Source: Bordetella genomosp. 4 (GTDB lineage Bacteria; Pseudomonadota; Gammaproteobacteria; Burkholderiales; Burkholderiaceae_B). From it: a stretch of 64,000 bases of DNA. The stretch is taken from assembly GCF_002261185.1 (NCBI RefSeq), contig NZ_NEVQ01000022.1, positions 310,001 to 374,000 of the forward strand, given 5' to 3'. The position numbers and the translations under genes were made by a program. Shown here one piece after another: positions 40,097 through 54,665 of this stretch. The stretch's first letter is position 1. Each line of letters starts with the position of its first letter. A model generated the notes under the pieces. It saw only the letters and a list, made by a program, of their open reading frames with translations. It did not search any database and was not told the DNA's origin.

Positions 40097-41275
40097 ATGT
40101 CTGCCGTCCAGCCTCACTCGCCTAACCCATCTGCCGTCTTTCACCGTCTTTATTCCATCGATGCCTTGCGTGGCTTGGTCATCGTCATCATGCTGCTGGA
40201 TCACGTTCGCGAAACGTTCTACCTGCATTTTCAGGTGGGCGATCCGATGGATGCCGCGGCCACGCCCCCCGATCTGTTTTTCTCCCGTCTGCTGGCGCAC
40301 TTGTGCGCCCCGGTGTTCGTTTTACTGACCGGCATTTCGGCTTGGTTATACGGCGACCGTGCCGGCAGCCGAGCCGCCACGGCAGCATTCCTGGCCAAGC
40401 GGGGTCTGTTCCTGATCGTGCTGGAAATTGTGGTCGTGAACGTCGCGTGGACGTTTGCTTTTCCGCCATCGGTCATTTATCTGCAAGTCATCTGGGTCAT
40501 CGGCCTGAGTATGCTGGCTCTGGCGGCGTTACTGTGGCTGCCGCGCTCAGTCGTGGCAGGCGTGGGACTGGTGCTGGTTGCAGGCCACAATCTGCTGGAT
40601 TCGGTCCACTTCGCACAAGGCCACTGGGCACACATCCTCTGGGCCGTCCTTCACGATCGCGGCTGGATCGAAGTGAGCGACGCGTTGCGTCTGCGCACCT
40701 CATATCCTCTGCTGCCCTGGATAGGCGTCATCGCACTGGGATATGCCGCCGGTCCCTGGTTTCACGCGAGAGTCCAATCGACGGTGCGACAACGGGGCCT
40801 GCTTTATGGCGGCTTGGGAGTATTGGCGGCGTTTATCGTACTGCGTGCGATCAATGGCTATGGCCAAGCGCAAAAATGGGGGATGCAGGACGACACGATA
40901 CACACGCTCATGAGCTTTTTGAACGTGACGAAGTACCCGCCATCGCTCATGTTCCTGTTGCTGACCCTAGGCCTGGGATTGGTGTTGCTGGCGTTGATGG
41001 AACGCGCAGGACGAGCCGCCTGGATACGCGTGTTGTGCGTGTTTGGCGCCGCGCCCATGTTCTTTTATCTGCTGCACCTTTATGTCCTGAAAGCGCTATA
41101 TCTGGCGTGCGTTGCGATCTGGGGATTGAACCAGGGCGACTACTTTGGTGTGTCTGGCGTGCCTGCGTTGTGGGTCATTTCGATACTGCTGGCCGCCGCG
41201 TTGTTTGTACCGGTGCGCTGGTATGGCCAACTGAAAGCGCGCCGTCGTGACATCACCTGGCTGAAGTATCTGTGA
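40097..41275 (+). CDS. DUF1624 / heparan-alpha-glucosaminide N-acetyltransferase-like membrane protein
   Basis: A 392-residue polytopic membrane protein with the family start YSIDALRGLVIVIMLLDHVR and about ten hydrophobic helices. The family is acyltransferase-like; its bacterial substrates are mostly unknown. The ATG at 40097 is chosen because it gives the shortest sensible N-terminus; no clear ribosome site is seen. The stop codon overlaps the porin start (TGATG). Confidence 0.83.
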   Translation: MSAVQPHSPNPSAVFHRLYSIDALRGLVIVIMLLDHVRETFYLHFQVGDPMDAAATPPDLFFSRLLAHLCAPVFVLLTGISAWLYGDRAGSRAATAAFLAKRGLFLIVLEIVVVNVAWTFAFPPSVIYLQVIWVIGLSMLALAALLWLPRSVVAGVGLVLVAGHNLLDSVHFAQGHWAHILWAVLHDRGWIEVSDALRLRTSYPLLPWIGVIALGYAAGPWFHARVQSTVRQRGLLYGGLGVLAAFIVLRAINGYGQAQKWGMQDDTIHTLMSFLNVTKYPPSLMFLLLTLGLGLVLLALMERAGRAAWIRVLCVFGAAPMFFYLLHLYVLKALYLACVAIWGLNQGDYFGVSGVPALWVISILLAAALFVPVRWYGQLKARRRDITWLKYL

Positions 41276-42381
41276 TGCGCAGTTGGCTACGGAATGCGGC
41301 AATTCATGCCGGATGCGCGGCTGCCGTCTGCGCGCCGTACGTCGCACACGCGCAATCGCAGAAACTCGTGCTGTATGGCGTCATCGACCTGAGCATCGCG
41401 GGCATCAACTCACAAGAACAAGGCACGTCGATCTCCATGCAGAGCGGCGTGCAATCGGGATCGCGATGGGGCCTGCGCGGCACCGAAGACCTGGGCTCGG
41501 GTTGGCGTGCAAGCTTCAATCTGGAAAGCGGCATTCTGGCGGCCAACGGACGGTCCGCGCAGGGAGGCCGGCTATTTGGGCGAGCCGCCTGGGTGGGGCT
41601 GTCAGGCCCCATTGGCGAGTTACGACTGGGGCGTCAGGCCTCGGCATCGTCCGCTACGCTGGCTGAGTTCGATCCGTTCCTGGCGTCATATCTGAATACC
41701 GGTGCGCAGACCGATCTGTTGCCGTTCAATGCAAATCGCGCCGACAACATGGTGTCCTATTGGACGCCATCGTGGAACGGATGGCGCGTCGGCACGGACT
41801 ATAGCTTCGGCTACGACGGTGCAGGCGGTTTCGCCACGGATACCTCCAATAAGCTGGCCAGCGCGGCGCTTGTCTATGAACAAGACGCCTACGCGATTAC
41901 CTTGACGCACGAGCGCGCCCACTGGGCAGAAAACACCCCGCAGGCCCAGGCGATGGCGGCACAGGGCGCCGCACGCCAACCCTATTCCACAACGGCCGCG
42001 GCGCGTGCCACGTGGGACGCGTTGACGGTCTATGTCGCATGGTCATGGATACGGCACGGCTCCACGATTCCCGCCGTTCCGTCTCCGGGGCAGCAGGCGT
42101 ATTTTCCCGATAGCACGGTACATGGACTATTGGCGGGCCTGACCTGGCGCGTGGGCGCAGGATCGGTCATGGCGTCCTGGCAGGCGAGCGTGCCGCAGAA
42201 CGACGGTGCATTGGCAGCAGCCAATGCCACGCATCACCAGCAAGTCTATTCACTGGGTTACACCCACGAACTGTCCAAACGCACGGGCGTTTACGCCATT
42301 GCGGGATACTTACGTGGTGCTTGGGACGATCCGTCGTGGCACCAGACGCAGTATGCGGTGGGGCTGAGACACAGGTTTTAA
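41275..42381 (+). CDS. Gram-negative porin (Porin_4/OmpC-like)
   Basis: A 368-residue outer-membrane porin: signal peptide ending VAHAQSQ, then KLVLYGVIDLSIAG, the typical SRWGLRGTEDLGSGWRASF and a C-terminal phenylalanine (GLRHRF) needed for BAM assembly. The ATG overlaps the stop of the preceding membrane-protein gene by one base, suggesting coupled translation. It forms a trimeric general or selective pore. Confidence 0.92.
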   Translation: MRSWLRNAAIHAGCAAAVCAPYVAHAQSQKLVLYGVIDLSIAGINSQEQGTSISMQSGVQSGSRWGLRGTEDLGSGWRASFNLESGILAANGRSAQGGRLFGRAAWVGLSGPIGELRLGRQASASSATLAEFDPFLASYLNTGAQTDLLPFNANRADNMVSYWTPSWNGWRVGTDYSFGYDGAGGFATDTSNKLASAALVYEQDAYAITLTHERAHWAENTPQAQAMAAQGAARQPYSTTAAARATWDALTVYVAWSWIRHGSTIPAVPSPGQQAYFPDSTVHGLLAGLTWRVGAGSVMASWQASVPQNDGALAAANATHHQQVYSLGYTHELSKRTGVYAIAGYLRGAWDDPSWHQTQYAVGLRHRF

Positions 42382-42385
42382 GCAC

Positions 42386-42426
42386 GGCATAGATGTAGCG
42401 CGAGTACCTGCACCATTGTCTATGCC
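42386..42426. terminator. Inverted repeat between convergent porin and nasA genes
   Basis: GGCATAGA (42386-42393) and TCTATGCC (42419-42426) are perfect complements, with a 25-nt loop and no T-run. It lies between the two convergent stop codons and could act weakly in either direction. Confidence 0.35.
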
Positions 42427-42470
42427 CGTTCCTATGAGGATGCCGGAGAAGCATCGAAACGCTCAGAGGA

Positions 42471-45203
42471 TCAAGCCGCCGCGCGCATCAATACCTGTGT
42501 CTCCGTGAGCAATCGTTTGAGCTCTGGCACGCACGAACCGCAGTTGCCGCCGGCTTTGACACAGGCCGTTATCTCACCCGTCGTCTGCAACCCCTTGTCG
42601 CGGATCGCGTCGCAGATGGTATTGCGGCCGACGCCGAAGCACGAGCAAATGACTGAACCGGTATCCGCTCCAGCCACGATGGGCTGGCCGAGCAACACAC
42701 CTGCGCGATCGATGTCCTCCAGACGCTCCTGAGCGAATAAACTTGCCAACCATTGGCGCGACGGTAGATCGGGACGTGGCGACAGATAAACACAGGCTTC
42801 GATGCGATCATCGATGAGGTACACGGCGCGATAGACGCGTGCGGTACGGTCTTCGTATTCCAGCCAATCGGCCTGCATGTCGCTCACGCCCAGTAGCGCG
42901 CGGGCCCAATCCTGAGGGGTATCGACGAGCTGCCGACCGGCCAATTCATAGCGCAGAAACTTCCGACCCTGGATACGCGTCCACCAAGCGACATCGTCGG
43001 TCTTCAGCTCTCGGCGCGTCAGCACAAAACCGTGCCATGCCACGTCGAAAGGCTCCACCATCACCGGTGTGTGCTTGAACTCTGGCTCGCCCGAAACAGG
43101 GTCGACGACTGGATTGACCACAGCCCCCACGCGCGCGTCGGAAGCAAACTGGCCATTCCAGTGAATGGGCACGAATACACTGCCGCGAGCGATGCCGCCC
43201 CCTTGGCGCACTCTGGCAACCATGCTGCCCCAGCGAGAACGTACCCGTGCCAACGCTCCTTCTCGTACGCCAGCCAAGAGCGCATCGTGCGGGTGCAGGT
43301 CAATGAAGGGCTCGGGAACATGCTCGGCGAGTTTTGGAGCACGACCCGTGCGTGTCATGGTGTGCCATTGGTCGCGCACACGGCCCGTGTTGAGAATCAG
43401 CGGATATTCGTCATCTACGGCGTGTTCCGGAGTACGCACCGGCGTAGGAACAAAGCGTGCGCGTCCGTCCGCATGGGAGAAAGCGCCATCGCTGAACAGG
43501 CGCGCAGCGCCACTGCCACCCGACGGCAGTGGCCATTGCACCGGCGTCAACGCATCGTATGCCGCTGGAGATAAACCCGCCAGCCCGCCAATATGAAATG
43601 CTCTAGGTATGAGATTCGCTTCATTGGACTCAGCCGATAAGCGGGCATGCTCGTCGAATACCTCTCGTTGGTGACGATACGAAAAGCCCTCATAACCCAT
43701 ACGTCTCGCCACGTCGGCAATGATGTCCCAATCTGCTCGCGCCTCGCCTGGCACCGGCAGGAAAGCGCGTTGGCGCGAAATCCGGCGTTCCGAGTTGGTG
43801 ACGGTGCCGTCTTTTTCGCCCCAGCCCAAGGCAGGCAGCACGATATCGGCATGAGCCATGGTGTCGGTATGAGCGACGATATCGCTCACCACGACGAGTT
43901 CACACGCATCCAGGGCACGTCGGACCTGGTCGGCATCAGGCAGGCTGACCACGGGATTCGTTCCCATGATCCATACTGCCTTGACGCGCCCCGCCTCGAT
44001 GGCCCGAAACAAGTCAACGGCCTTCAAACCCACACGATCGGCCATACGCGGCGCATCCCAGAATGCCTGTACGAGTTCGCGATGCGCCGGCTCATGGAGT
44101 TCCAGATGAGCGGCCAGCATATTGGCCAAGCCCCCCACCTCGCGTCCGCCCATGGCATTGGGCTGGCCGGTGATTGAGAATGGCCCCGTTCCGGGTTGAC
44201 CGATACGGCCGGTAAGCAGATGGCAGTTGATGATGCTGTTGACTTTGTCTGTGCCTGCCGAGGACTGATTCACGCCTTGCGAGAATGCAGTGATCGTCCG
44301 AGGCCGTTCGATGAACCACTGAAAGAAAGTGCGAACCGATTCCTCATCGAGCCGGCAGTCGCGGGCCACGGATGCGATGTCGCTATCAGCGCCTGCGGCG
44401 AGCAGCGCCTCATCAAGGCCCGCGGTGTGCTCGGCAACGAAACGCTCGTCTGCCAGGCCCTGCCGCACCAGATGCGCCAGCAAACCATTGAACAGCCAGA
44501 CATCGGTGCCGGGCTTGATCGGCAGGTGCAGATCCGCCAACTCGCACGTCGCGGTATGGCGCGGGTCGACCACCACCAGCTTCATGTCGGGCCGGGCTTC
44601 TTTCGCGCGCGCGATCCGTTGGAACAGGATGGGATGGCACCATGCCGCATTCGATCCCACCAGAACCACCAGGTCAGCCAATTCCAGATCGTCATAGCAG
44701 ACAGGCACCAGGTCTTCACCAAAGGCACGCTTGTGTCCCGCCACAGCCGACGACATGCACAGCCGGGAGTTCGTGTCGATGTTGGCGCTGCCGATAAAGC
44801 CCTTCATCAATTTATTGGCAACGTAATAGTCTTCGGTCAGTAACTGACCAGAGACATAAAACGCCACGGCGTCAGGACCATGCGACTCGATGATGCGACG
44901 CAATCCCTGGGCTGCGGTGTCGAGCGCCTGATCCCACGATACGCGTTGCAAAGGCGCGCTTTTATCGGACACGGCCTGCCGCATCGCAGGATAAAGCAGA
45001 CGGCCTTCCAAGCCAACGGTCTCACCGAGCGCGGAGCCTTTCACGCATAGACGTCCGCCATTGGCGGGATGTTGAATATCCCCTTCAATGCGGACTTCGC
45101 CATCCGACTGCGGCATAGCCAGCACCCCGCAACCGACGCCGCAGTACGGGCACGTGGTACGTACCGACGTATCAACGGGAGCTATCTTAATCGTCGTTGT
45201 CAT
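42471..45203 (-). CDS. nasA: Assimilatory nitrate reductase catalytic subunit with C-terminal [2Fe-2S] domain
   Basis: A 910-residue molybdopterin enzyme reducing nitrate to nitrite in the cytoplasm. The N-terminal [4Fe-4S] site is CPYCGVGC (residues 18-25) with a later Cys in RLCVKG; bis-MGD segments follow (NSRLCMSSAVAGHKRAFG, WIMGTNPVVSLPDADQVR). The last 60 residues form a BFD-like [2Fe-2S] domain (ICSCFGVG, then GNCGSCVPEL), as in NasA/NasC of assimilatory systems. The ATG at 45203 is chosen over an upstream frame extension because it yields the standard start and has AGGA nearby. It is the last gene of the nitrate operon. Confidence 0.93.
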   Translation of the reverse strand: MTTTIKIAPVDTSVRTTCPYCGVGCGVLAMPQSDGEVRIEGDIQHPANGGRLCVKGSALGETVGLEGRLLYPAMRQAVSDKSAPLQRVSWDQALDTAAQGLRRIIESHGPDAVAFYVSGQLLTEDYYVANKLMKGFIGSANIDTNSRLCMSSAVAGHKRAFGEDLVPVCYDDLELADLVVLVGSNAAWCHPILFQRIARAKEARPDMKLVVVDPRHTATCELADLHLPIKPGTDVWLFNGLLAHLVRQGLADERFVAEHTAGLDEALLAAGADSDIASVARDCRLDEESVRTFFQWFIERPRTITAFSQGVNQSSAGTDKVNSIINCHLLTGRIGQPGTGPFSITGQPNAMGGREVGGLANMLAAHLELHEPAHRELVQAFWDAPRMADRVGLKAVDLFRAIEAGRVKAVWIMGTNPVVSLPDADQVRRALDACELVVVSDIVAHTDTMAHADIVLPALGWGEKDGTVTNSERRISRQRAFLPVPGEARADWDIIADVARRMGYEGFSYRHQREVFDEHARLSAESNEANLIPRAFHIGGLAGLSPAAYDALTPVQWPLPSGGSGAARLFSDGAFSHADGRARFVPTPVRTPEHAVDDEYPLILNTGRVRDQWHTMTRTGRAPKLAEHVPEPFIDLHPHDALLAGVREGALARVRSRWGSMVARVRQGGGIARGSVFVPIHWNGQFASDARVGAVVNPVVDPVSGEPEFKHTPVMVEPFDVAWHGFVLTRRELKTDDVAWWTRIQGRKFLRYELAGRQLVDTPQDWARALLGVSDMQADWLEYEDRTARVYRAVYLIDDRIEACVYLSPRPDLPSRQWLASLFAQERLEDIDRAGVLLGQPIVAGADTGSVICSCFGVGRNTICDAIRDKGLQTTGEITACVKAGGNCGSCVPELKRLLTETQVLMRAAA

Positions 45204-45217
45204 CTGCAATCCTGCCG

Positions 45218-46441
45218 TCAACCTGCTTCGCAGAGCTTTTGGCCGAACAATAGGCGTTGCCGAATCGAGGTGATCGGCGCTTGCCGTTGGATCAAATCGA
45301 AATACCACGGCCCATCCGTCACGTCGCCGTACAACACCGCGCCGACGACGCAATCATTCTTGAGTACCAGCCGCTTATAAATGCCCCGCCGTGGATCACG
45401 CAGAACGATATCCTCAGTATCGGCGCCGCCGACAATATTTCCGGCCGAATAAAGATCGACGCCCGTGACTTTGAGCTTGGTCGCAGTGGCACGCTGTACA
45501 TAGCGGCGGTGGCCCGCCCCCGCCAGATGCGCCGCACATACGCGCGCCTGTTCCCATATAGGGGCGACTAAACCGAACGTGCTGCGGCGATGCTCGACAC
45601 ACTCTCCCACCGCGTACACGCACGGATCATAGGTTTGCAGCGTATCGTCCACAACAATCGCACGCTCGCAATGCAGGCCCGAGTCACGAGCCAGGTCGAC
45701 ATTTGGCCGCACACCTGTCGCCATCACGACCAGATCGGCTGCAATCTCGCGCCCGTCGTTGAAACGCACGGCGGTAACGCGCTCCGTGCCTACCAGCTCG
45801 GCAGTTTGCGCGCCCATTTCAAAACGCAGGCCGCTGGACTCCAGTGCCCGCTGCAACAATGCAGAGGCCGGCGCATCCAGCTGGCGCTCCATCAAACTCG
45901 GGTGCAGGTGCACCACCGTTACCGTCATTCCTTGACGCAACAGACCGTTGGCAGCCTCCAGCCCCAGCAGTCCACCTCCGATCACCACGGCATGATGATG
46001 CTGGCGCGAGGCTTCGAGCATGGTTTCCACGTCCTGAATATCGCGAAACCCGATTACGCCATCGAGATCGCTGCCCGGCACAGGAGGAATAAATGGTCTC
46101 GACCCCGTGGCGATCAACAATCGGTCATAGCGAACCTGCAGTCCGCTTTGCGCATGCACGAGCCGGCGCGAACGATCGATCTGCACCACCGGATCGCCGG
46201 CATGCAAGGTGATACCGTATTCGGCATACCATTCGCGCGTATTGAGCATGATATCGCCGACGCTCTTTTCGCCAGCCAATACTGGGGACAGCAGGATACG
46301 GTTGTAGTTGCCATGCGGCTCTGCGCCGAACACAGTGATGTCGTACAAGTCCGGGGCGAGCTGCAGCAGTTCCTCTACGGTACGCATGCCAGCCATACCG
46401 TTGCCTACTACCACCAAACTGGGGCGCCCCGACTGACTCAT
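45218..46441 (-). CDS. NAD(P)/FAD-dependent oxidoreductase, NirB N-terminal-like (probable nitrate reductase electron donor)
   Basis: A 407-residue flavoprotein with FAD motif VVVGNGMAGMRTVEELL, NAD motif VVIGGGLLGLEAANGLL and the late FAD motif VYAVGECVEHR. It resembles the first 400 residues of NirB and rubredoxin reductases but lacks the siroheme domains. Its ATG overlaps the nirD stop by 4 bp and it ends 14 bp before nasA. The likely role is to pass NADH electrons to the BFD cluster of NasA, comparable to NasB of other systems. Confidence 0.87.
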   Translation of the reverse strand: MSQSGRPSLVVVGNGMAGMRTVEELLQLAPDLYDITVFGAEPHGNYNRILLSPVLAGEKSVGDIMLNTREWYAEYGITLHAGDPVVQIDRSRRLVHAQSGLQVRYDRLLIATGSRPFIPPVPGSDLDGVIGFRDIQDVETMLEASRQHHHAVVIGGGLLGLEAANGLLRQGMTVTVVHLHPSLMERQLDAPASALLQRALESSGLRFEMGAQTAELVGTERVTAVRFNDGREIAADLVVMATGVRPNVDLARDSGLHCERAIVVDDTLQTYDPCVYAVGECVEHRRSTFGLVAPIWEQARVCAAHLAGAGHRRYVQRATATKLKVTGVDLYSAGNIVGGADTEDIVLRDPRRGIYKRLVLKNDCVVGAVLYGDVTDGPWYFDLIQRQAPITSIRQRLLFGQKLCEAG

Positions 46442-46773
46442 GCTGCCACCCAGATCCGAGCCTTGTCGATCTTGGCGGGGTAGGCCGGCACCGAGTGCTC
46501 TGGCTCCTCCAGGCACTCGCCGGTGAACAAGTCGAAATGCTGCTTGTACAGCGGCGACGCGACGACGACACGATCACCGATATTTCCGACCAAGCCGCGT
46601 GCCAGCACGCTGGCGCCGCTCTTGGGGTCGATATTGCCAATGGCAAAGATGCGCCCGTCACCCAGACGAAACACCGCCACATGCTGCCCGCCGACCAAGG
46701 CACAGACGCCGGTGCCGGACACGATGTCTTGAACTGCGCAGACGTCTGCCCAGCCTTTTTCAAGGGTTGTCAT
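46438..46773 (-). CDS. nirD: Nitrite reductase (NADH) small subunit NirD
   Basis: A 111-residue Rieske-like fold protein: VCALVGGQHVAVFRLGDG, NIDPKSGASVLARGLVG and SPLYKQHFDLFTGECLE. As usual for NirD, the Rieske cysteine/histidine ligands are absent. It partners with NirB, 35 bp upstream. Confidence 0.94.
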   Translation of the reverse strand: MTTLEKGWADVCAVQDIVSGTGVCALVGGQHVAVFRLGDGRIFAIGNIDPKSGASVLARGLVGNIGDRVVVASPLYKQHFDLFTGECLEEPEHSVPAYPAKIDKARIWVAA

Positions 46774-46808
46774 GCTGCCATTCCTTCTCTATATCCAATG
46801 AGGCCGTA

Positions 46809-49367
46809 CTAGACGGTGAGGGCTTCCGCCCGCTCGGTCTCTTCGCGCTCCTGCGGCGACGCCGGGCGTATCTGTCCGCGTTCCGGTACAAAGACGATTT
46901 TTTCGTCCAGCGATTCGCTGTTCACAAAACTGCGAAAACGCTTGCGAACCTCCGGTTGCGTGACAGCGACCTTCCACTCATCCTGATAGGTATCCACGAC
47001 ATGCTGCATCTCGGCTTCCAGCTCGGCCGCAATGCCCAGCTTGTCGTGCACCACGACATCTTGCAGATACTGCAGACCGCCCTCTAGGTTGTCGCGCCAG
47101 GTGCTGGTGCGTTGCAAGCGATCAGCGGTACGTACATAGAACATCAGGAATCGGTCGACATACTTCACAAGCGTGGCCTGATCCAGATCGGATGCCAACA
47201 GCTCGGCGTGCCGCGGTTTCATGCCGCCATTGCCGCACACGTAGAGGTTCCAGCCTTTCTCGGTAGCAATGATGCCCACGTCCTTGCCCTGCGCTTCGGC
47301 GCATTCACGTGTGCAGCCCGACACGCCGAACTTGATCTTGTGCGGGGAACGCAGGCCTTTGTACCGGTTCTCCAGAGAGATGGCGAAGCCCACGGAATCC
47401 CCCACACCATAACGGCACCACGTGGATCCCACGCAACTTTTGACGGTACGCAGGGATTTTCCATACGCATGACCGGACTCGAAGCCCGCCGCGATCAACT
47501 CTTCCCAAATCAAGGGCAGCTGCTCTACTCGCGCGCCGAACATATCCACGCGCTGACCGCCCGTGATTTTGGTGTAGAGCCCGTATTTCTTGGCGACCTG
47601 TCCCACGGCGATCAGCCCCTCGGGCGTAACCTCGCCACCGGGCATGCGGGGCACAACGGAGTAACTGCCGTCCTTCTGGATGTTGCCGAGGTAATAGTCA
47701 TTGCTGTCCTGCAGGCCAGCCAACGGCGGCTGCAGAACGAACTCGTTCCAGCAGGACGCGAGAACGCTCGCCGCGACGGGTTTACAGATGTCGCAGCCCA
47801 GCCCCTTGCCATGCTTTTCCAACAATGCTTCGAAAGTCTTGATCTCACCCACGCGCACCAAGTGGTAGATCTCTTGGCGCGAATAGGGAAAATGCTCGCA
47901 CAAATGGTTGTTGACGGCCATTCCCTGCTTTTTCATCTCGGCCTTCATGACCTGCGTCACCAACGGCACACAACCGCCGCAAGTCGACCCGGCCTTGGTG
48001 CAAGCCTTTAGATCGCCGATCGTGCACACCCCTTCCCCTACAGCCGCGCAGATCTGTCCTTTGGTGACGTTATTGCAGGAACAAATCTGTGCGCTGTCGG
48101 GCAGCGCGTCCACGCCCAGGCCAGGCTTGGCCTTGCCGTCGCTCGAAGGCAGAATCAGAAACTCGGGTTCCTCTGGCAGGGCGATACCGTTGAGCGCCAT
48201 CTGCAGCAGCGTGCCATACTCATCGGCGTTGCCTACCAGCACGGCGCCGAGCAATTTTTTGCCATCCTCGCTGGTGACGATTTTCTTGTAGACCTGCTTG
48301 CGTTCATCGACATATTGGTAGCTGCGGCAGTCTTTCGTCTTGCCATGCGCATCCCCGATGCTGGCCACATCCACGCCCATCAGCTTGAGCTTCGTGCTCA
48401 TGTCGGCGCCGGCGAAACGGGTGGCCTCGACACCCATCAGGCCAGCCTCGCTGGCGATATGACGAGCCGCCACACGCGCCATGTCATAACCGGGCGCCAC
48501 CAGGCCAAACACCTGCTCCTGCCACGACGCGCATTCGCCTATCGCATAAACATTACGATCGCTCGTGCGACAGAAGTCATCGATCACTACACCGCCACGC
48601 GAGCCTACCGCCAGCAAACACTGACGCGCCAGTTCGTCTCTCGGCCGTATCCCGGCCGAGAACACAATCATGTCGGTTTCCAGGAGTTTGCCGTCGGCAA
48701 ACACCATGCGGTGCTGCGCCAGCGCTCCGTCTACGATCTCTACCGTATTGCGATCGGTGTGCACTTGCACGCCCAATGCCTCGATCTTGCGGCGTAGCAT
48801 CTGGCCGCCGCTCTCGTCCACCTGTACCGTCATCAGCCGAGGCGAGAATTCGACTACATGCGTTTCCAGACCCATATCCCTCAAGGCTTTCGCACACTCC
48901 AGCCCCAACAGTCCGCCACCGACCACCACACCGCGCCTGGCCCCACGGCCTGCAGCCTGCATCGCCTCCAGGTCTTCGATCGTGCGATAAACGAAGCAAT
49001 TCGGACGATCCCGCCCGGGCAACCCTGGCACAAAAGGATTAGAGCCCGTGGCCAGCACCAGCTTGTCGTAGGGCAGCACTTCGCCATCCGCAGTGGTCAC
49101 CGTATTGTTACGGCGTTCGACGGCAACAGCGCGCGCAGCCAGGCGCAGCTTGAAACCGGTACGTTCAAAGAAACCAGGTTCTACCAGCGATAGATCGTCA
49201 GCGGTACGGCCGCTGAAGAACTCGGACAAGTGCACCCGGTCATAAGCAGGACGGGGTTCCTCGCACAACACCGTGACTTCGACATCTTGCAGTCCCGTCT
49301 CAGCGAGGCTTTCCAGAAACTTGTGGCCCACCATCCCGTGGCCAACAACGATGATCTTCATACTCAT
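46809..49367 (-). CDS. nirB: Nitrite reductase (NADH) large subunit NirB
   Basis: An 852-residue cytoplasmic siroheme enzyme reducing nitrite to ammonium with NADH. The order is FAD/NAD domain (VVGHGMVGHKFLE at the start), BFD [2Fe-2S] domain (ICSCNNVTKG, STCGGCVPL), nitrite/sulfite reductase ferredoxin-like domain, and the siroheme-[4Fe-4S] domain with CVGSTWC (C-x5-C) and SGCTRECA (C-x3-C) at about residues 640-690. GGAGGAA precedes the ATG by 7 nt. It is second in the operon after narK. Confidence 0.96.
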   Translation of the reverse strand: MSMKIIVVGHGMVGHKFLESLAETGLQDVEVTVLCEEPRPAYDRVHLSEFFSGRTADDLSLVEPGFFERTGFKLRLAARAVAVERRNNTVTTADGEVLPYDKLVLATGSNPFVPGLPGRDRPNCFVYRTIEDLEAMQAAGRGARRGVVVGGGLLGLECAKALRDMGLETHVVEFSPRLMTVQVDESGGQMLRRKIEALGVQVHTDRNTVEIVDGALAQHRMVFADGKLLETDMIVFSAGIRPRDELARQCLLAVGSRGGVVIDDFCRTSDRNVYAIGECASWQEQVFGLVAPGYDMARVAARHIASEAGLMGVEATRFAGADMSTKLKLMGVDVASIGDAHGKTKDCRSYQYVDERKQVYKKIVTSEDGKKLLGAVLVGNADEYGTLLQMALNGIALPEEPEFLILPSSDGKAKPGLGVDALPDSAQICSCNNVTKGQICAAVGEGVCTIGDLKACTKAGSTCGGCVPLVTQVMKAEMKKQGMAVNNHLCEHFPYSRQEIYHLVRVGEIKTFEALLEKHGKGLGCDICKPVAASVLASCWNEFVLQPPLAGLQDSNDYYLGNIQKDGSYSVVPRMPGGEVTPEGLIAVGQVAKKYGLYTKITGGQRVDMFGARVEQLPLIWEELIAAGFESGHAYGKSLRTVKSCVGSTWCRYGVGDSVGFAISLENRYKGLRSPHKIKFGVSGCTRECAEAQGKDVGIIATEKGWNLYVCGNGGMKPRHAELLASDLDQATLVKYVDRFLMFYVRTADRLQRTSTWRDNLEGGLQYLQDVVVHDKLGIAAELEAEMQHVVDTYQDEWKVAVTQPEVRKRFRSFVNSESLDEKIVFVPERGQIRPASPQEREETERAEALTV

Positions 49368-49380
49368 GAAAAATTCCTCC

Positions 49381-50706
49381 TCAGGCGCCCGCGGCGCTGG
49401 GGTTCAGCGTGTTGTCGTACAGGGCTTGCTCGCGGGCCTTATGTTCTGCAGAAAAGCGCACGGCGATCGCACATGCCGCCGACAGGATCACCAACACACC
49501 CAGCACGGATAGCGTGCTCTGCGTATCGCCCATCCCCTTCATCAAGAAACCCGCCGCCACCGCGCCCACATTGCCGCCGGCGCCGATAATGCCCGCCACG
49601 CCGCCCAATGCATTGCGATCCACAAAGGGCACCAGCGCATACGTCGCGCCGCAGGCCATATGGGTAAAGAGGCCGAACACCAGCATTGCCAGCACGGCTA
49701 GCGTGGCGTTATCCGCATGAGCAAAGCCCAACAGTCCCACGCCCTCACCGACCATCAGCACGCATAGCAGCAGCGTGCGTCCATCCAGCCCGCGCCGCTG
49801 CGCCATCCGATCAGACACGATGCCGCCCAACGCGCGGGCAAACAACGCCAGCAAGCCAAAGCTCGCCGCCGCTATGCCTGCCGACGAGAGGGACAGGCCG
49901 AAACGCTCGACGTAGTAAATAGCCGCCACGTTATGGATGAAAATCTCCACACCAAAGCAGGCGCCATAGGTCACGAACAAGAGCCATACGCGATAGTTAC
50001 AGGCGGCCGCGGCAAAGCTGGCCCAGCCGCCTTTCTTGCCGCTGTCGATAGTCTTTCCTGCTGCTCGCAAGTCTGAATAGTTGCCTTCCGGGCAATCCTG
50101 GGTGTAGCGCCAGTAGAGCGCGGCAACGATCAGCATCGCGACACCAGGCACCACCATGGCCAGACGCCAGCCCAGGCTTTGGCTCACGCCCATCATCACG
50201 ATGGCCGTCAACAGCAGCGGCATCGTGCCTTGCGCCACACCGCCGCCGGCGTTGCCCCAGCCCGCTGTGGTGGCATTGGCCGTGCCGACCACATTGGGCG
50301 CGAACATGACAGAGGTGTGATACTGCGTGATGACGAAGCTCGCCCCGATCGCGCCTATCGCCAACCGGAAGAACAAAAACGCTTCATAACTCTGCGCCAG
50401 TGCCACACCCAATACCGGAATCGCTCCTAATACCAGCAAGCCGGTATAAGCCTTGCGCGGCCCATAGCGATCACACAGCGGCCCGACAATGAGACGCACA
50501 AGGATGGTCACTGCCACCGCGGCAATATTGATATTGGCGATCTGTCCCGGCGTGAGATTGAATTCGCCCTTTAGTACGGGCATCAGCGGCGCGCACGCGA
50601 ACCACGCGTAGAAACACACAAAGAATGCCAGCCAAGTCAGGTGAAAGGCACGCATCTGCGGCGTACGCAGGCTGAATAGATCAATGCGAGTAGCTTTGGC
50701 AGTCAT
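49381..50706 (-). CDS. narK: Nitrate/nitrite transporter, major facilitator superfamily (NarK/NasA type)
   Basis: A 441-residue MFS protein with about 12 helices, starting MTAKATRIDLFSLRTPQMRAF; NarK-family marks include FACAPLMPVLKGEFNLTPGQ and GWGNAGGGVAQGTMPLL. The ATG at 50706 is preferred over an extended frame. It imports nitrate for the reductases encoded directly downstream (nirB starts 14 bp after the stop). The gene follows a sigma-54 promoter with NtrC-type boxes, so expression likely responds to nitrogen limitation. Confidence 0.94.
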   Translation of the reverse strand: MTAKATRIDLFSLRTPQMRAFHLTWLAFFVCFYAWFACAPLMPVLKGEFNLTPGQIANINIAAVAVTILVRLIVGPLCDRYGPRKAYTGLLVLGAIPVLGVALAQSYEAFLFFRLAIGAIGASFVITQYHTSVMFAPNVVGTANATTAGWGNAGGGVAQGTMPLLLTAIVMMGVSQSLGWRLAMVVPGVAMLIVAALYWRYTQDCPEGNYSDLRAAGKTIDSGKKGGWASFAAAACNYRVWLLFVTYGACFGVEIFIHNVAAIYYVERFGLSLSSAGIAAASFGLLALFARALGGIVSDRMAQRRGLDGRTLLLCVLMVGEGVGLLGFAHADNATLAVLAMLVFGLFTHMACGATYALVPFVDRNALGGVAGIIGAGGNVGAVAAGFLMKGMGDTQSTLSVLGVLVILSAACAIAVRFSAEHKAREQALYDNTLNPSAAGA

Positions 50707-50780
50707 GTCTGTCCCAATAACGTAGTACTTGAGACCAGCTGGTGTACCGGCTGGCACGGGTCTTTTTTGCCTTAGAAACT

Positions 50781-50797
50781 ATGCAAAAACCATGCCA
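50781..50797 (-). promoter_or_regulatory. Sigma-54 (RpoN) promoter of the nitrate assimilation operon
   Basis: Read on the minus strand, TGGCATGGTTTTTGCAT matches the consensus TGGCACG-N4-TTGCW closely. The invariant GG (50796-50795) and GC (50784-50783) are separated by exactly 10 bp. Transcription would begin near 50771, giving a leader of about 65 nt before narK. That leader contains a CCAGC/GCTGG inverted repeat (50735-50754). Confidence 0.8.
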
Positions 50798-50830
50798 AGC
50801 AGGACTACCAAGACGAGACAATGTTGCGTC

Positions 50831-50845
50831 GCACCAAACGAGTGC
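50831..50845. promoter_or_regulatory. NtrC-type binding site, promoter-proximal
   Basis: GCACCAAACGAGTGC matches the GCAC-N7-GTGC pattern of NtrC (GlnG) boxes. Its centre lies about 67 bp upstream of the predicted start site of the sigma-54 promoter. Confidence 0.7.
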
Positions 50846-50871
50846 TGGACGCACTCATTCCGGGTAAAAGC

Positions 50872-50886
50872 GCACCAACGAGGTGC
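50872..50886. promoter_or_regulatory. NtrC-type binding site, promoter-distal
   Basis: GCACCAACGAGGTGC is a near-ideal NtrC box with perfect GCACC/GGTGC arms. Its centre is 41 bp (about four helical turns) from the proximal box and about 108 bp upstream of the predicted start site, the usual paired enhancer arrangement. Confidence 0.75.
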
Positions 50887-50962
50887 TGACGGGTTTTTGC
50901 GGACATCTGCCCGCACGACAATGGTGCTGATCGTTCCCGCTAAAGGGGACGCATGAACCAAC

Positions 50963-50999
50963 AAGGGGAATGCTGGATATCGGCGCCAGCATTCCCCTT
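50963..50999 (-). terminator. Strong 14-bp hairpin between Bug gene and nitrate operon
   Basis: AAGGGGAATGCTGG (50963-50976) pairs perfectly with CCAGCATTCCCCTT (50986-50999) around a 9-nt loop. It is 90 bp downstream of the Bug gene (minus strand) and upstream of the NtrC boxes. Only a short T-rich stretch follows on the minus strand. It probably insulates the nitrate operon from read-through. Confidence 0.55.
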
Positions 51000-51088
51000 C
51001 AATGAAGATCTGAGCATCCTCGGTTGCCCTAGGCCGCCTGAGCTTGCTCGGACATTAACGAACTCCTGCCATCAAACCAGGCGCGAAG

Positions 51089-52057
51089 TTATTGCTTTTC
51101 TACTAAACCCAGGCGCTTGATCAGATCGCCATACATTTTGAACTGGTCCTGTGCAAACGCGGCGAAGGCTTGCGAGTCCATGTAATAGGCTGGGGTATCT
51201 AGCGGCTCGACGTCAGCCCGATAGGCATCGCTTTTCAATGCCGTTTGGCAGGCGTTTTCCAATGCACCCATCGCCTCTTTAGGCAGGCCCTTGGGCGCAA
51301 TCAATCCGCCCCAGATAGAGGCATTGATAGACCATCCCGCCTCTTTAATGGTCGGAACATCCGGGTAGCCGGCAAGCCTCGTGTCCGAGAACACCGCCAA
51401 TGGGCGCAGCTTATAGCGCTTGGACACCGTCGGCGTTTCATTGAATACCATGATCTGCTTACCCATTAGATCGGTGACCATCTCGCCAGAGCTTTTGTAT
51501 GGAACGTGCAGTGCCGTAGCCCCAGCCTGGTCCATCAACATTTCCATGGCCAGATGCAGCAATGTGCCATGCCCCGAAGACCCATACGTCAGCTTGCCCG
51601 GGTTTTCTTTCGCGTAGGCAATGACATCCGACACACTCCGAAAAGGCGAGTCCTCGGTAACCATCATCATCAGCGGCACTGAATAGGTCGCACATACGTG
51701 ATCAAAATCCTGATAGGTGTACCCCGTCTTGCGGATGGCCGGCTGCAGGACTTCCGGCCCGATCACAGACAGGCCGACCGTGTATCCGTCCGCCGCTGAT
51801 CGCTTTAGTTGGGTCATACCGATGGCCCCGCCCGCCCCGGCTTTGTTTTCAACAACAATCGTCGCAGGCAACGCGGCGCTCAGATGCTTTGCCAGGATTC
51901 GAGCCATGATGTCGGAGGTGCCGCCTGGACCGAACGGCACGATCATGGTGATGGGTTTACTGGGGTAGTTCGCTTGCTGTGCAGACACGATCTGAGGTGC
52001 CATTGCCAGCGCCGCGGCCGCCGCGATCGCGCTCACCAGAGCCGATGGTGATTTCAT
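51089..52057 (-). CDS. Bug/TctC family tripartite tricarboxylate receptor protein
   Basis: Periplasmic receptor of 322 residues: signal peptide ending QIVSAQQ, then YPSKPITMIVPFGPGGTSD and VPYKSSGEMVTDLMG. The ATG at 52057 has GGAGA 7 nt upstream. It follows the aldolase gene by 25 bp and is the last gene of the LacI-regulated operon. Confidence 0.92.
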   Translation of the reverse strand: MKSPSALVSAIAAAAALAMAPQIVSAQQANYPSKPITMIVPFGPGGTSDIMARILAKHLSAALPATIVVENKAGAGGAIGMTQLKRSAADGYTVGLSVIGPEVLQPAIRKTGYTYQDFDHVCATYSVPLMMMVTEDSPFRSVSDVIAYAKENPGKLTYGSSGHGTLLHLAMEMLMDQAGATALHVPYKSSGEMVTDLMGKQIMVFNETPTVSKRYKLRPLAVFSDTRLAGYPDVPTIKEAGWSINASIWGGLIAPKGLPKEAMGALENACQTALKSDAYRADVEPLDTPAYYMDSQAFAAFAQDQFKMYGDLIKRLGLVEKQ

Positions 52058-52082
52058 CGTGATGTCTCCCAATCTCTCTTTT

Positions 52083-52892
52083 TTAGTACACGCTGCTTTC
52101 GAATTTTTTTGCGATGGCGGGCCGGATAGCACCGATGAAAGCAGTCGCCTGCCGCATCATCATGCCCATATCCGAAGCCACGGCAACGAACGAATAACCG
52201 AGTTCGATGAACTCGGAAACCATCTCTGGGGTAGGACCGACAATGCCGCAAGGTTTGCCGATCGCCTGGCAACGTTTGGCCACATTGGCGATCACGGCTT
52301 TCACGTCGGGATGAGCGATATTGCCGATATGCCCCATGTTGGCAGATAAATCGCCCGGTCCCAGGAAAAGCGCATCGACGCCCGGCACACTCGCAATATC
52401 CTCCAACGCGGCCACGGCCTGCGGCGTTTCCAGCTGGATGATGGTGAAGACCGAGTCATTCGCACGTTTGGCGTACTCGCTGGCAGTGCCATAGCCGCTG
52501 GCTCGATGCACGGCCGCAAAACCGCGAATCCCTTCGGGCGGATACTTTGCATACGACACCGCTTGCCGGGCAGCAGCGGCACTATCCACGAACGGCACCA
52601 TGACGGTTTTGGCACCCAGGTCCAAGGCGCGCTTGAACAGGATCGGATCATTGGCAGCCAGGCGGGCGATGGGGCAGGCATTGGTGCCAGCGATCGCCTG
52701 CAATACCGCGAGCGTTTCTTTTTCATCTAGCGGGACATGCTCCAGATCGACCAATAGCCAATCGAATCCAGCGTGACCCATGGCCTCTGCTGTGCTGGAC
52801 GTGCCCGACATCAGCCACGTCCCAAGCGGCACGCCTGGTTCGTTCAAACGGGTGCGAAATGCGTTTTCTAACAGGTCTTTCGGCGCTGGCAT
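52083..52892 (-). CDS. HpcH/HpaI family class II aldolase (2-keto-3-deoxy acid type)
   Basis: A 269-residue metal-dependent aldolase: GTWLMSGTSSTAEAMGHAGF, DWLLVDLEHVPLD, IIQLETPQAVAALEDI (metal-binding Glu) and DALFLGPGDLSANMG (Asp). The family cleaves 4-hydroxy-2-keto acids or 2-keto-3-deoxy sugar acids to pyruvate and an aldehyde. Together with the adjacent IlvD/Edd dehydratase it forms a two-step non-phosphorylative sugar-acid pathway. Confidence 0.9.
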   Translation of the reverse strand: MPAPKDLLENAFRTRLNEPGVPLGTWLMSGTSSTAEAMGHAGFDWLLVDLEHVPLDEKETLAVLQAIAGTNACPIARLAANDPILFKRALDLGAKTVMVPFVDSAAAARQAVSYAKYPPEGIRGFAAVHRASGYGTASEYAKRANDSVFTIIQLETPQAVAALEDIASVPGVDALFLGPGDLSANMGHIGNIAHPDVKAVIANVAKRCQAIGKPCGIVGPTPEMVSEFIELGYSFVAVASDMGMMMRQATAFIGAIRPAIAKKFESSVY

Positions 52893-52913
52893 TGCGTGTC
52901 CTTGTCTGCGTCT

Positions 52914-54665
52914 TTAGTAAATGGAGGGTTCGGGCGTAGGCGCGGTCCCTTCGAGGGCCTTGAAATCGCAGCCCTGATGGGCCTGCGTCACTTCTGCCTG
53001 GTAAATGCGGGTGTAGCCGCGTTCGTAGGTCTTGGCGGGTGGCGCCCATTGTTTTCTCCGCTCAGCCAGTTCGGCGTCGGAAATCAGAACATCGAGTTGC
53101 CGTTTCGCGATATCGAGCTGGATCAGATCGCCCGTACGAATCAGAGCCAAAGGCCCGCCTACAGCGGACTCGGGGCTGATGTGCAGAACACACGTCCCAT
53201 AATGCGTGCCGCTCATTCGCGAATCCGAGAGACGCAGAATGTCGGTAACGCCTTTTTCGAGCAGCTTTTTGGGAATCGGCAGATTGCCCCATTCCGGCAT
53301 GCCAGGACCACCGACCGGCCCACCATTGCGCAACACCAGAACAGTATTCTCATCAACCTCCAATGCGGGATCGTTGATGGCGGCCAACATATCGGCGTTG
53401 GAATCGAATACCAACGCTGGTCCGGTATGTTTCAGCAGCCGTGCCGATGCGGCAGACGGCTTGATGACAGCTCCCTCTGGGCATAGATTTCCATGCAACA
53501 CGGCGAGCGCCATGCTGGCCTCAGGACAGCCCTCCGCCGCACTCACAACCGGATTATTCAACGGTCGAATCACATCGTCGTCTGTGCTGACATGACCCTC
53601 GATATTGGCGCCTAAGGTCTTGCCCGTACACGTCAATGCATCCAGTGCCAAGACATCGCTGATACGGTTCAGCAATGCAGGCAGCCCACCCGCGTAATAG
53701 AAGTCTTCCATCAGGCGGTTACCCGACGGGAATAGATTGGCGATGACGGGGACCTTGCGCGCCATGCTATCGAAATCATCCAGCCCCAGCTCAATGCCGG
53801 CGCGGTTCGCCATGGCAGGTAGATGAACAGCCGCATTGGTCGACCCACCCAACGCCATCCACGTCGCCACCCCGTTCAGGAACGACGCACGGCTCAAGAT
53901 CTTCGACGGTGTAAGGTCGTCCCACACCATGTCGACAATCCGCGCTCCGCATGACCAGGCCATTCGTGTATGCCCCGCGTCCATGGCAGGCACACTCGTG
54001 GAGCCTGGCAAGGCCAGCCCCATGGCCTCTACGATGGCGGTCATCGTGCTGGCCGTGCCCATCGTGTTGCACGTGCCGGGAGCACGCGTCATCCGCGCCT
54101 CTAGCGATATCCATTCTTCCTGATCGATCGCGCCTATGGTGTACTGTTCCCAGTATTTCTTGGTATGCGTGCCGGCTCCGACTGCTTGTCCCTTGTATCG
54201 GTCGTTCAACATGGGACCCGCTGGGCAAAAGATGGCAGGGATCCCCATGGAGATAGCGCCCATCACCAACCCCGGTGTGGTTTTATCGCATCCGCCCAGT
54301 AGCACCACGCCATCCAGAGGCAAGCTGCGGATAAGCTCCTCGGCCTCCATGGCCAGAAAGTTTCGATAGAGCATGGTGGTCGGTTTCACCATGACTTCGC
54401 CCAAGCTCATTGCCGGGAGCTCCAACGGATATCCCCCTGTCTGCAAGACGCCCCTTTTGATCGCCTGTGCACGGTCTCTCAGGTGAGCATGGCACGGCGA
54501 CAGATCGCTCCACGTGTTCAGGATGCCGATAATAGGCCGCCCCATGAACTCTTCGCGATTCAGCCCTTGCTGCTGCATTCGTTGCCGATGTGCAAAACCG
54601 CGAATGCTTTCCCCAGCGAACCAGCGTTGGCTGCGCAGTTCGCCGATTTTCTTTTTTTCAACCAT
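52914..54665 (-). CDS. IlvD/Edd family sugar-acid dehydratase
   Basis: A 583-residue iron-sulfur dehydratase: LLGGCDKTTPGLVMGAISM (cluster Cys), APGTCNTMGTASTM (cluster Cys) and MALGGSTNAAVHLPAMANR. The length and the pairing with an HpaI-type aldolase suit L-arabinonate, D-xylonate or gluconate-type dehydratases better than valine biosynthesis. It would produce a 2-keto-3-deoxy acid. It is 3 bp from the upstream Bug gene and 21 bp from the aldolase gene. Confidence 0.9.
   Translation of the reverse strand: MVEKKKIGELRSQRWFAGESIRGFAHRQRMQQQGLNREEFMGRPIIGILNTWSDLSPCHAHLRDRAQAIKRGVLQTGGYPLELPAMSLGEVMVKPTTMLYRNFLAMEAEELIRSLPLDGVVLLGGCDKTTPGLVMGAISMGIPAIFCPAGPMLNDRYKGQAVGAGTHTKKYWEQYTIGAIDQEEWISLEARMTRAPGTCNTMGTASTMTAIVEAMGLALPGSTSVPAMDAGHTRMAWSCGARIVDMVWDDLTPSKILSRASFLNGVATWMALGGSTNAAVHLPAMANRAGIELGLDDFDSMARKVPVIANLFPSGNRLMEDFYYAGGLPALLNRISDVLALDALTCTGKTLGANIEGHVSTDDDVIRPLNNPVVSAAEGCPEASMALAVLHGNLCPEGAVIKPSAASARLLKHTGPALVFDSNADMLAAINDPALEVDENTVLVLRNGGPVGGPGMPEWGNLPIPKKLLEKGVTDILRLSDSRMSGTHYGTCVLHISPESAVGGPLALIRTGDLIQLDIAKRQLDVLISDAELAERRKQWAPPAKTYERGYTRIYQAEVTQAHQGCDFKALEGTAPTPEPSIY

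Follow-up and report, generated by a model that had tools for sequence, protein, structure and literature searches.

A nitrate assimilation operon in Bordetella genomosp. 4 with a three-box NtrC-type array, a sigma-54 promoter element and no nitrate-responsive leader found at narK

The DNA analysed here (the window) is a 64-kb stretch, G000:C9:310001-374000, of a source genome, G000, that is available as a 5.53-Mb draft in 23 contigs. It holds an assimilatory nitrate operon in which genes for a transporter, NirB, NirD, an additional reductase and a nitrate reductase are read in one direction with short gaps. These genes and the features upstream of them are as follows.

42471..45203, minus strand: nasA, molybdopterin nitrate reductase, 910 aa (Pfam Molybdopterin, Molydop_binding, Molybdop_Fe4S4, Fer2_BFD)
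45218..46441, minus strand: nasB (name used here), FAD/NAD reductase, 407 aa (Pfam Pyr_redox_2, Rubredoxin_C)
46438..46773, minus strand: nirD, nitrite reductase small subunit, 111 aa (TIGR02378, 111.8 bits, above cut-off)
46809..49367, minus strand: nirB, nitrite reductase large subunit, 852 aa (TIGR02374, 1117.8 bits, above cut-off)
49381..50706, minus strand: narK-like nitrate/nitrite MFS transporter, 441 aa (TIGR00886, 304.5 bits, just below the cut-off of 311.7)
50707..50771, minus strand: narK leader, 65 nt; neither an ANTAR-type leader nor a terminator was found in it
50771, minus strand: predicted transcription start, 12 nt past C(-12) of the sigma-54 element
50782..50797, minus strand: sigma-54 promoter element TGGCATGGTTTTTGCA, GG at -25/-24 and GC at -13/-12
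50831..50845, minus strand: NtrC-type box 1, GCACTCGTTTGGTGC, exact GCAC-N7-GTGC, centre -67
50872..50886, minus strand: NtrC-type box 2, GCACCTCGTTGGTGC, exact GCAC-N7-GTGC, centre -108
50913..50927, minus strand: NtrC-type box 3, GCACCATTGTCGTGC, exact GCAC-N7-GTGC, centre -149
50965..50997, no strand: inverted repeat of two perfect 12-bp arms around a 9-nt loop, followed by a weak T tract; lies between tctC and box 3

All five reading frames of the operon are open, and the gaps from narK through nirB, nirD and nasB to nasA are 13, 35, -4 and 14 bp, in agreement with the five closely spaced nitrate genes described in an earlier reading of the letters alone (the sequence-only reading). The window narK is 88-90% identical to the genes of seven Ralstonia-clade loci (L001-L006 and L009), and the nasB product, which is related to the N-terminal half of NirB, has equivalents at the same position in Ralstonia-clade operons with 78-80% identity. 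The nasA product has a C-terminal BFD-like [2Fe-2S] domain and only NCBIfam matches below cut-off; it was named by its domains, its synteny and its 79-80% identity to five full-length Ralstonia-clade copies. Between 41300 and 51100 a scan of both strands gives 11 terminator-like sites, where shuffles average 7.9, and the 9 on the operon strand speak against the single transcript that our preferred explanation would involve. The inverted repeat at 50965..50997, which does not come up as terminator-like in a scan of 50000-51400, is perhaps the end of the upstream transcript.

The sigma-54 promoter with an exact GG-N10-GC that the sequence-only reading had placed before narK is borne out. TGGCATGGTTTTTGCA, on the minus strand at 50797-50782, is the sole zero-mismatch match to TGGCAYNNNNNTTGCW in the window; its exact GG-N10-GC stands within TGGCAYR-N4-TTGCW, it agrees at 11 of 12 scored positions, and its C(-12) is placed 77 nt ahead of the narK start codon (ATG, 50706). 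Matches to TGGCAYNNNNNTTGCW with at most one mismatch are at chance level (6 in the window vs a shuffle mean of 6.25). Across the genome we counted 48 TGGCAYNNNNNTTGC sites vs 13 for the reversed control, and in a control with one base more of spacing (N6 for N5) the count was 32, with 34 for its own reversed pattern. No sigma-70 promoter was found in 50000-51400, and 0 sigma-70-like sites were found over 41300-51100. For comparison we fetched 80 narK relatives, the best 80 of at least 585 confirmed stretches, and a GG-N10-GC element scoring at least 9/12 is present within 450 bp upstream of narK in 75 of these 80; the exceptions are L045, L076, L079, L080 and L054, the last with just 37 bp of upstream DNA.

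Farther upstream, the two GCAC-N7-GTGC boxes reported earlier at about -67 and -108, 41 bp apart, are confirmed at 50831-50845 and 50872-50886; that set was incomplete, because a third exact box lies 41 bp beyond them at 50913-50927. Counted from the predicted start at 50771, the three exact sites of this putative NtrC enhancer are centred at -67, -108 and -149. Since 41 bp is about four helical turns, the boxes would lie on one face of the DNA, and since the spacers between them have just 6 of 26 bases in common pairwise, as in unrelated DNA, the three boxes are not a tandem duplication. Single exact boxes are common in this genome (166 in 5,526,746 bp vs 147 for the reversed control), and the window has 5, compared with 2.46 on average in shuffles. 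If boxes were placed independently at the density seen in the genome, about 2e-6 triples with an equal spacing of 35-47 bp would be expected per genome, a figure that leaves the sigma-54 site out. A search of the whole 5.5-Mb genome for the box pair, as the sequence-only reading had proposed, returned no pairs 35-47 bp apart other than the two at narK, and in a survey of the family 21 of 151 genomes had at least one such pair.

To place this array among the genome's other sigma-54 promoters, all 48 TGGCAYNNNNNTTGC sites were read with their flanks and exact boxes were sought at -260 to -20. Seven of the 48 have an exact box in this range, with three boxes at narK alone, and the 48 stretches together contain 11 exact boxes in 11,520 bp vs 0.35 expected from genome density. 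The promoter of glnA-ntrB-ntrC (C16:458073-458087) has, like that of narK, a sigma-54 element and exact boxes, but there are two of these, at -118 and -85 and 33 bp apart, rather than three 41 bp apart. An ABC-type gene has two boxes at -155 and -124, 31 bp apart, a PII-protein (glnK/glnB-like) gene has a sigma-54 element with one exact box (both names read from the ORF starts), and three further sites have one exact box each. The description of the narK spacing as that of a classic enhancer thus holds only in part, as it is 41 bp vs 31-33 bp at the genome's other two-box promoters. Within 450 bp upstream of narK in the relatives (best 80 of at least 585), 49 have no exact box, 26 have one, five have two and none has three; because 49 of the 80 have none, exact NtrC boxes are not a constant part of these promoters.

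Several arrangements in the same genome are worth recording in their own right. At 50840-50856 of the window, GAGTGC-GTCCA-GCACTC forms a perfect inverted repeat that shares bases with the upstream half of box 1 and possibly arose by chance from half-sites. The sigma-54 element at C10:40940-40954 (L183), with its boxes at -155/-124, precedes the ABC-type ORF, which is substrate-binding-like and is a candidate member of the NtrC regulon, and at C21:417159-417468 (L204) two divergent sigma-54 elements have three one-mismatch NtrC-type boxes between them. One of the rpoN genes (C16:153465-154871) has a sigma-54 element of its own at C16:154964-154978 (L188), with C(-12) 51 nt before the likely ATG, suggesting possible RpoN control of an RpoN; this site resembles one listed for R. 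solanacearum rpoN2 in the excerpts of PMC4371752.

The regulators of such a promoter are encoded in G000. NtrC scores 671 bits vs a cut-off of 558.6 and its gene lies downstream of glnA and ntrB, NtrB is present, and both of two RpoN loci are above cut-off. The arrangement of elements at narK is not a chance one, and the genes for NtrB, NtrC and RpoN are there. The sequence-only reading had proposed that NtrC and RpoN control this operon, and the proposal gains support from a box array far beyond chance, from the encoded NtrC, NtrB and two RpoN proteins, from the same elements at glnA and the PII-protein gene, and from mutants of relatives that depend on RpoN and NtrC (excerpts of PMC4371752 and PMC5491218). 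NtrC/sigma-54 control of the narK operon is very likely right.

Control of this kind is known in relatives. According to the excerpted text of PMC4371752, rpoN1 is required for growth of R. solanacearum on nitrate, and the nitrate operon RSp1219-RSp1223 has a predicted sigma-54 site, TGGCACACCTGTTGCA, at 151; the same 16-mer also precedes narK in L001 and L002. The Ralstonia-clade loci (L001-L006, L009) share with the window the order narK-nirB-nirD-reductase-nasA where the contig allows, a sigma-54 element and at least one exact NtrC box, with one or two such boxes vs three in the window. According to PMC5491218, a B. cenocepacia H111 ntrC mutant is unable to use nitrate, with NtrC and sigma-54 both needed for nirB-nirD-nasA and the transporter genes; the genes for the transporter and for nitrate and nitrite reductase change by -6.5 to -6.8 in this mutant and nasT, itself NtrC-dependent, by -8.1 (values read as log2). 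B. cenocepacia CMCC(B)23006, taken from plasmid records, likewise has a sigma-54 element before narK, with two exact boxes vs three in the window. NtrC/sigma-54 control of the operon is therefore known in kind, and the unusual part is the missing nitrate-responsive leader downstream of the promoter.

Such a leader is regularly present in the betaproteobacterial relatives. When the 15 loci from outside the Betaproteobacteria and L054 are set aside from the best 80 of at least 585, all 64 remaining betaproteobacterial loci have a leader of 110-191 nt in which ANTAR-type hairpins overlap a strong terminator, with 121-202 nt from C(-12) to narK. The 5' part typically forms a hexaloop hairpin whose first and fourth loop bases are A and G (GGATC-AACGGC-GATCC type), often followed by a second, and the 3' part forms a hairpin, GGAC-AACGGC-GTCC, whose 3' arm is also the 5' arm of the strong terminator with its T tract. 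In an alignment of 27 leaders, 13 of 21 predicted pairs show pair-keeping changes on both sides, the 5' hexaloop hairpin contributing 4 of its 5 pairs and the terminator 9 of its 16, counts that ignore kinship among the 27. A covariance model built from these leaders (R1) matches at narK in all 37 betaproteobacterial loci held out from it and in 3 of 15 loci outside the Betaproteobacteria (both sets from the best 80 of at least 585), so the leader is not universal in the latter group, in which the predicted leader of Alcanivorax L075 is just 30 nt. R1 also matches at narK in B. cenocepacia and C. metallidurans. At L060 the predicted start may be wrong, because the R1 match begins upstream of it. 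An Rfam scan assigned the leader to no family in three relatives' loci.

Hexaloops that have A as first and G as fourth base, together with a second hairpin that excludes the terminator, are the mark of ANTAR targets in the excerpts of PMC3369931 and PMC7496416, and by this likeness the relatives' leaders probably act in nitrate-responsive antitermination. At least one ANTAR protein is encoded in all 32 relatives sampled from the best 80 of at least 585. In three Burkholderia/Paraburkholderia loci (L030:10537-10668, L036:10554-10681 and L062:1946-2077) a second R1 match of 62-66 bits lies just 3' of narK, which looks as though nitrate were checked twice along one operon.

The window differs in this respect. 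We found no leader there with A1/G4 hexaloop hairpins of which the last overlaps a terminator, and with filters off the best R1 score in 41000-53000 is 8.7 bits, located outside the narK leader. The fold of the 65-nt leader has a z-score of -0.84, no better than shuffles, compared with -2.4 to -5.9 for the leaders of four relatives; no terminator-like site was found in 50000-51400, and Rfam gave just one sub-threshold match on the stretch. We also looked for a remnant of the Ralstonia leader and rejected it: local alignment scores of the window leader to five such leaders were reached by 15-118 of 200 shuffles. Nor were NarL-, FNR- or IHF-like motifs found in the 294 bp upstream of narK. Genome-wide, R1 has 0 matches in G000 with 150 of 2022 candidates scored, and the ANTAR domain, which by itself is no proof of NasT, has 0 matches with 56 candidates scored; because the assembly is a 23-contig draft an ANTAR gene could sit in a gap, though completeness is given as 100. 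The absence of a nitrate-responsive leader at narK and of an ANTAR match in the assembly is well supported. The sequence-only reading, which had no comparison at hand, was right about the promoter region and missed this absence.

The difference is seen against the known nitrate systems that we compared. Whereas the window locus lacks the leader, 7 of 7 Ralstonia-clade loci keep one that is 136-148 nt long and includes hexaloop hairpins as well as a terminator, and an ANTAR gene, not found in G000, is present in 6 of 6 of their genomes tested (L001-L006); B. cenocepacia CMCC(B)23006 also has the leader (69.4 bits). The nasF/NasR and NasS/NasT systems serve assimilatory nitrate operons, as in the window, and these operons are under general nitrogen control in their hosts. 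They differ from the window in having an ANTAR leader and protein, neither of which was found in G000. Nitrate-responsive ANTAR antitermination is described for K. oxytoca nasF with NasR and for NasS/NasT of Paracoccus, Pseudomonas and Bradyrhizobium in excerpts of PMC7496416, PMC3369931 and PMC7261876 and in the abstracts of PMC3795266, PMC5424462 and PMC6759348.

Within the family, a narK at E <= 1e-120 occurs in 8 of 268 genomes. Five of these are from outside the genus, and each of the five shows a leader match (35.8 to 74.6 bits) and encodes an ANTAR protein; the three genus genomes are all leaderless, G000 and G103 having no ANTAR match and G123 having one. G103 and G123 each have a lone narK, on another branch of the tree than the window narK, with a sigma-54 element, one exact box and a leader of 28 and 27 nt, respectively; neither is the same operon as in the window, as the 13 kb read contain no nirB, nirD or nasA match. 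An ANTAR gene is present in 5 of 8 other genus members. In each of these five (L208-L212) there is one no more than about 4 kb away from a different nas locus, whose reductase is 60-61% identical, and four of the five show a weak leader match at that locus, G141 being marginal at 21.1 bits; this locus is perhaps an older nitrate system, not found in G000. Another genus-mate, G151, has a leader match of 31.3 bits (C18:55499-55608, L215) and no ANTAR domain found. As G123, with its ANTAR gene and no leader match, and G151 each have one without the other, leader and ANTAR protein are not always paired. The genus, then, can carry the leader/ANTAR system, which in G000 was not found.

Phylogeny groups at least part of the operon with Ralstonia-type genes. 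The sister group of the window narK consists of seven Ralstonia-type genes (support 100/100), and in a quick tree nasA is sister to five such genes (SH-aLRT 100); nirB falls on a long branch without firm support and so speaks neither for nor against a Ralstonia origin. Over its first 90 nt, narK shares 82-86% identity with three Ralstonia-clade loci, homology resuming at the start codon, and the leaders of the window and the Ralstonia clade align no better than shuffles. Among plasmid records we found no close copy, the best being 78% at the protein level. As the leader is retained at all seven loci of the Ralstonia clade, at those of Cupriavidus and in the five genomes of the family from outside the genus, the simplest history is that the operon was acquired and its promoter-leader stretch then replaced. 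Most likely, then, the nitrate switch was lost after acquisition and the operon is now run by NtrC alone.

Taken together, these data lead us to consider it probable that a three-box NtrC enhancer and a sigma-54 promoter drive narK-nirB-nirD-nasB-nasA and that, with the leader gone, the operon is blind to nitrate and responds to nitrogen limitation alone; NtrC binding, a single transcript and independence from nitrate are the parts that we infer. When nitrogen is short, NtrB would phosphorylate NtrC, NtrC-P would oligomerise on the three boxes as one array, and the DNA would loop so that RpoN polymerase could open the promoter, with the five genes made as one transcript. In the relatives a second checkpoint would follow the promoter, the leader RNA terminating unless an ANTAR protein of the NasT type, freed on sensing nitrate or nitrite, refolds it. 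The window operon would have no leader terminator to pass, and we predict its expression to be independent of nitrate, occurring with or without it under nitrogen limitation. That it should be nitrate-blind follows from the missing leader and from the ANTAR protein not being found.

The joint loss of both parts bears on whether such an operon would still be of use. In P. putida, which has NasS/NasT, deletion of nasT abolishes growth on nitrate (excerpts of PMC7261876), so loss of NasT alone should disable an operon of this kind, and loss of the leader along with the ANTAR protein should keep it usable. That the operon is rewired, as opposed to decaying, is argued best by the pairing of these two apparent losses; its five frames are open. 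On the fuller account we are a little short of even confidence: that a horizontally acquired operon was rewired from two signals to one, its NasT/ANTAR switch removed in cis and in trans and the one or two boxes seen in sister operons replaced by a three-box array in helical register, permitting foraging whenever nitrogen is short, whether nitrate is present or not.

Other explanations deserve weighing against the nitrate-blind operon with its three-box enhancer. NtrC/sigma-54 control could be ordinary here and nitrate sensed by another route, such as a NarXL-type pair, that replaced the leader; relatives do carry both kinds of element, NtrC/sigma-54 and leader, and the P. putida nasT phenotype, as excerpted, indicates that sensing can matter. 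We nevertheless think this unlikely, given that no ANTAR protein was found among 56 scored candidates, which argues against NasT and NasR types alike, and that the 294 bp upstream contain no NarL- or FNR-like motif. A different question is how many of the boxes make up the enhancer. In E. coli glnA, a low-affinity governor site limits expression at high NtrC-P. The box at -67, which is near the promoter, could possibly be such a governor, or it or the distal box could be used in some other way, leaving an enhancer of two boxes, as at the genome's other multi-box promoters (glnA at -85/-118, the ABC-type gene at -124/-155). All three boxes at narK are exact and equally spaced, however, which suggests one array and makes the two-box alternative doubtful in our view. 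That the boxes are chance matches and the promoter free of NtrC control might be argued from the slight enrichment of single boxes genome-wide (166 vs 147) and from the 49 relatives (best 80 of at least 585) with no exact box within 450 bp of narK. With three boxes in register beside the window's sole exact sigma-54 match, and some 2e-6 triples expected per genome, this is very improbable.

Accounts of bacterial nitrate assimilation, the papers cited here among them, usually have it depend on two signals, a shortage of nitrogen and the presence of nitrate. Among the titles and abstracts of one open-access library, the wordings that we searched gave no report of a natural assimilatory operon that had lost this leader. 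Beyond this one locus, the comparison documents an ANTAR-type leader conserved among the narK operons of Betaproteobacteria. An operon with no nitrate signal in cis, in a genome where no ANTAR protein was found, can be set beside sister operons that keep both signals and so permits the value of the second signal to be tested directly; the same comparison would test whether extra NtrC sites compensate. If the nitrate-blind reading is true, the operon may respond to nitrogen hunger alone.
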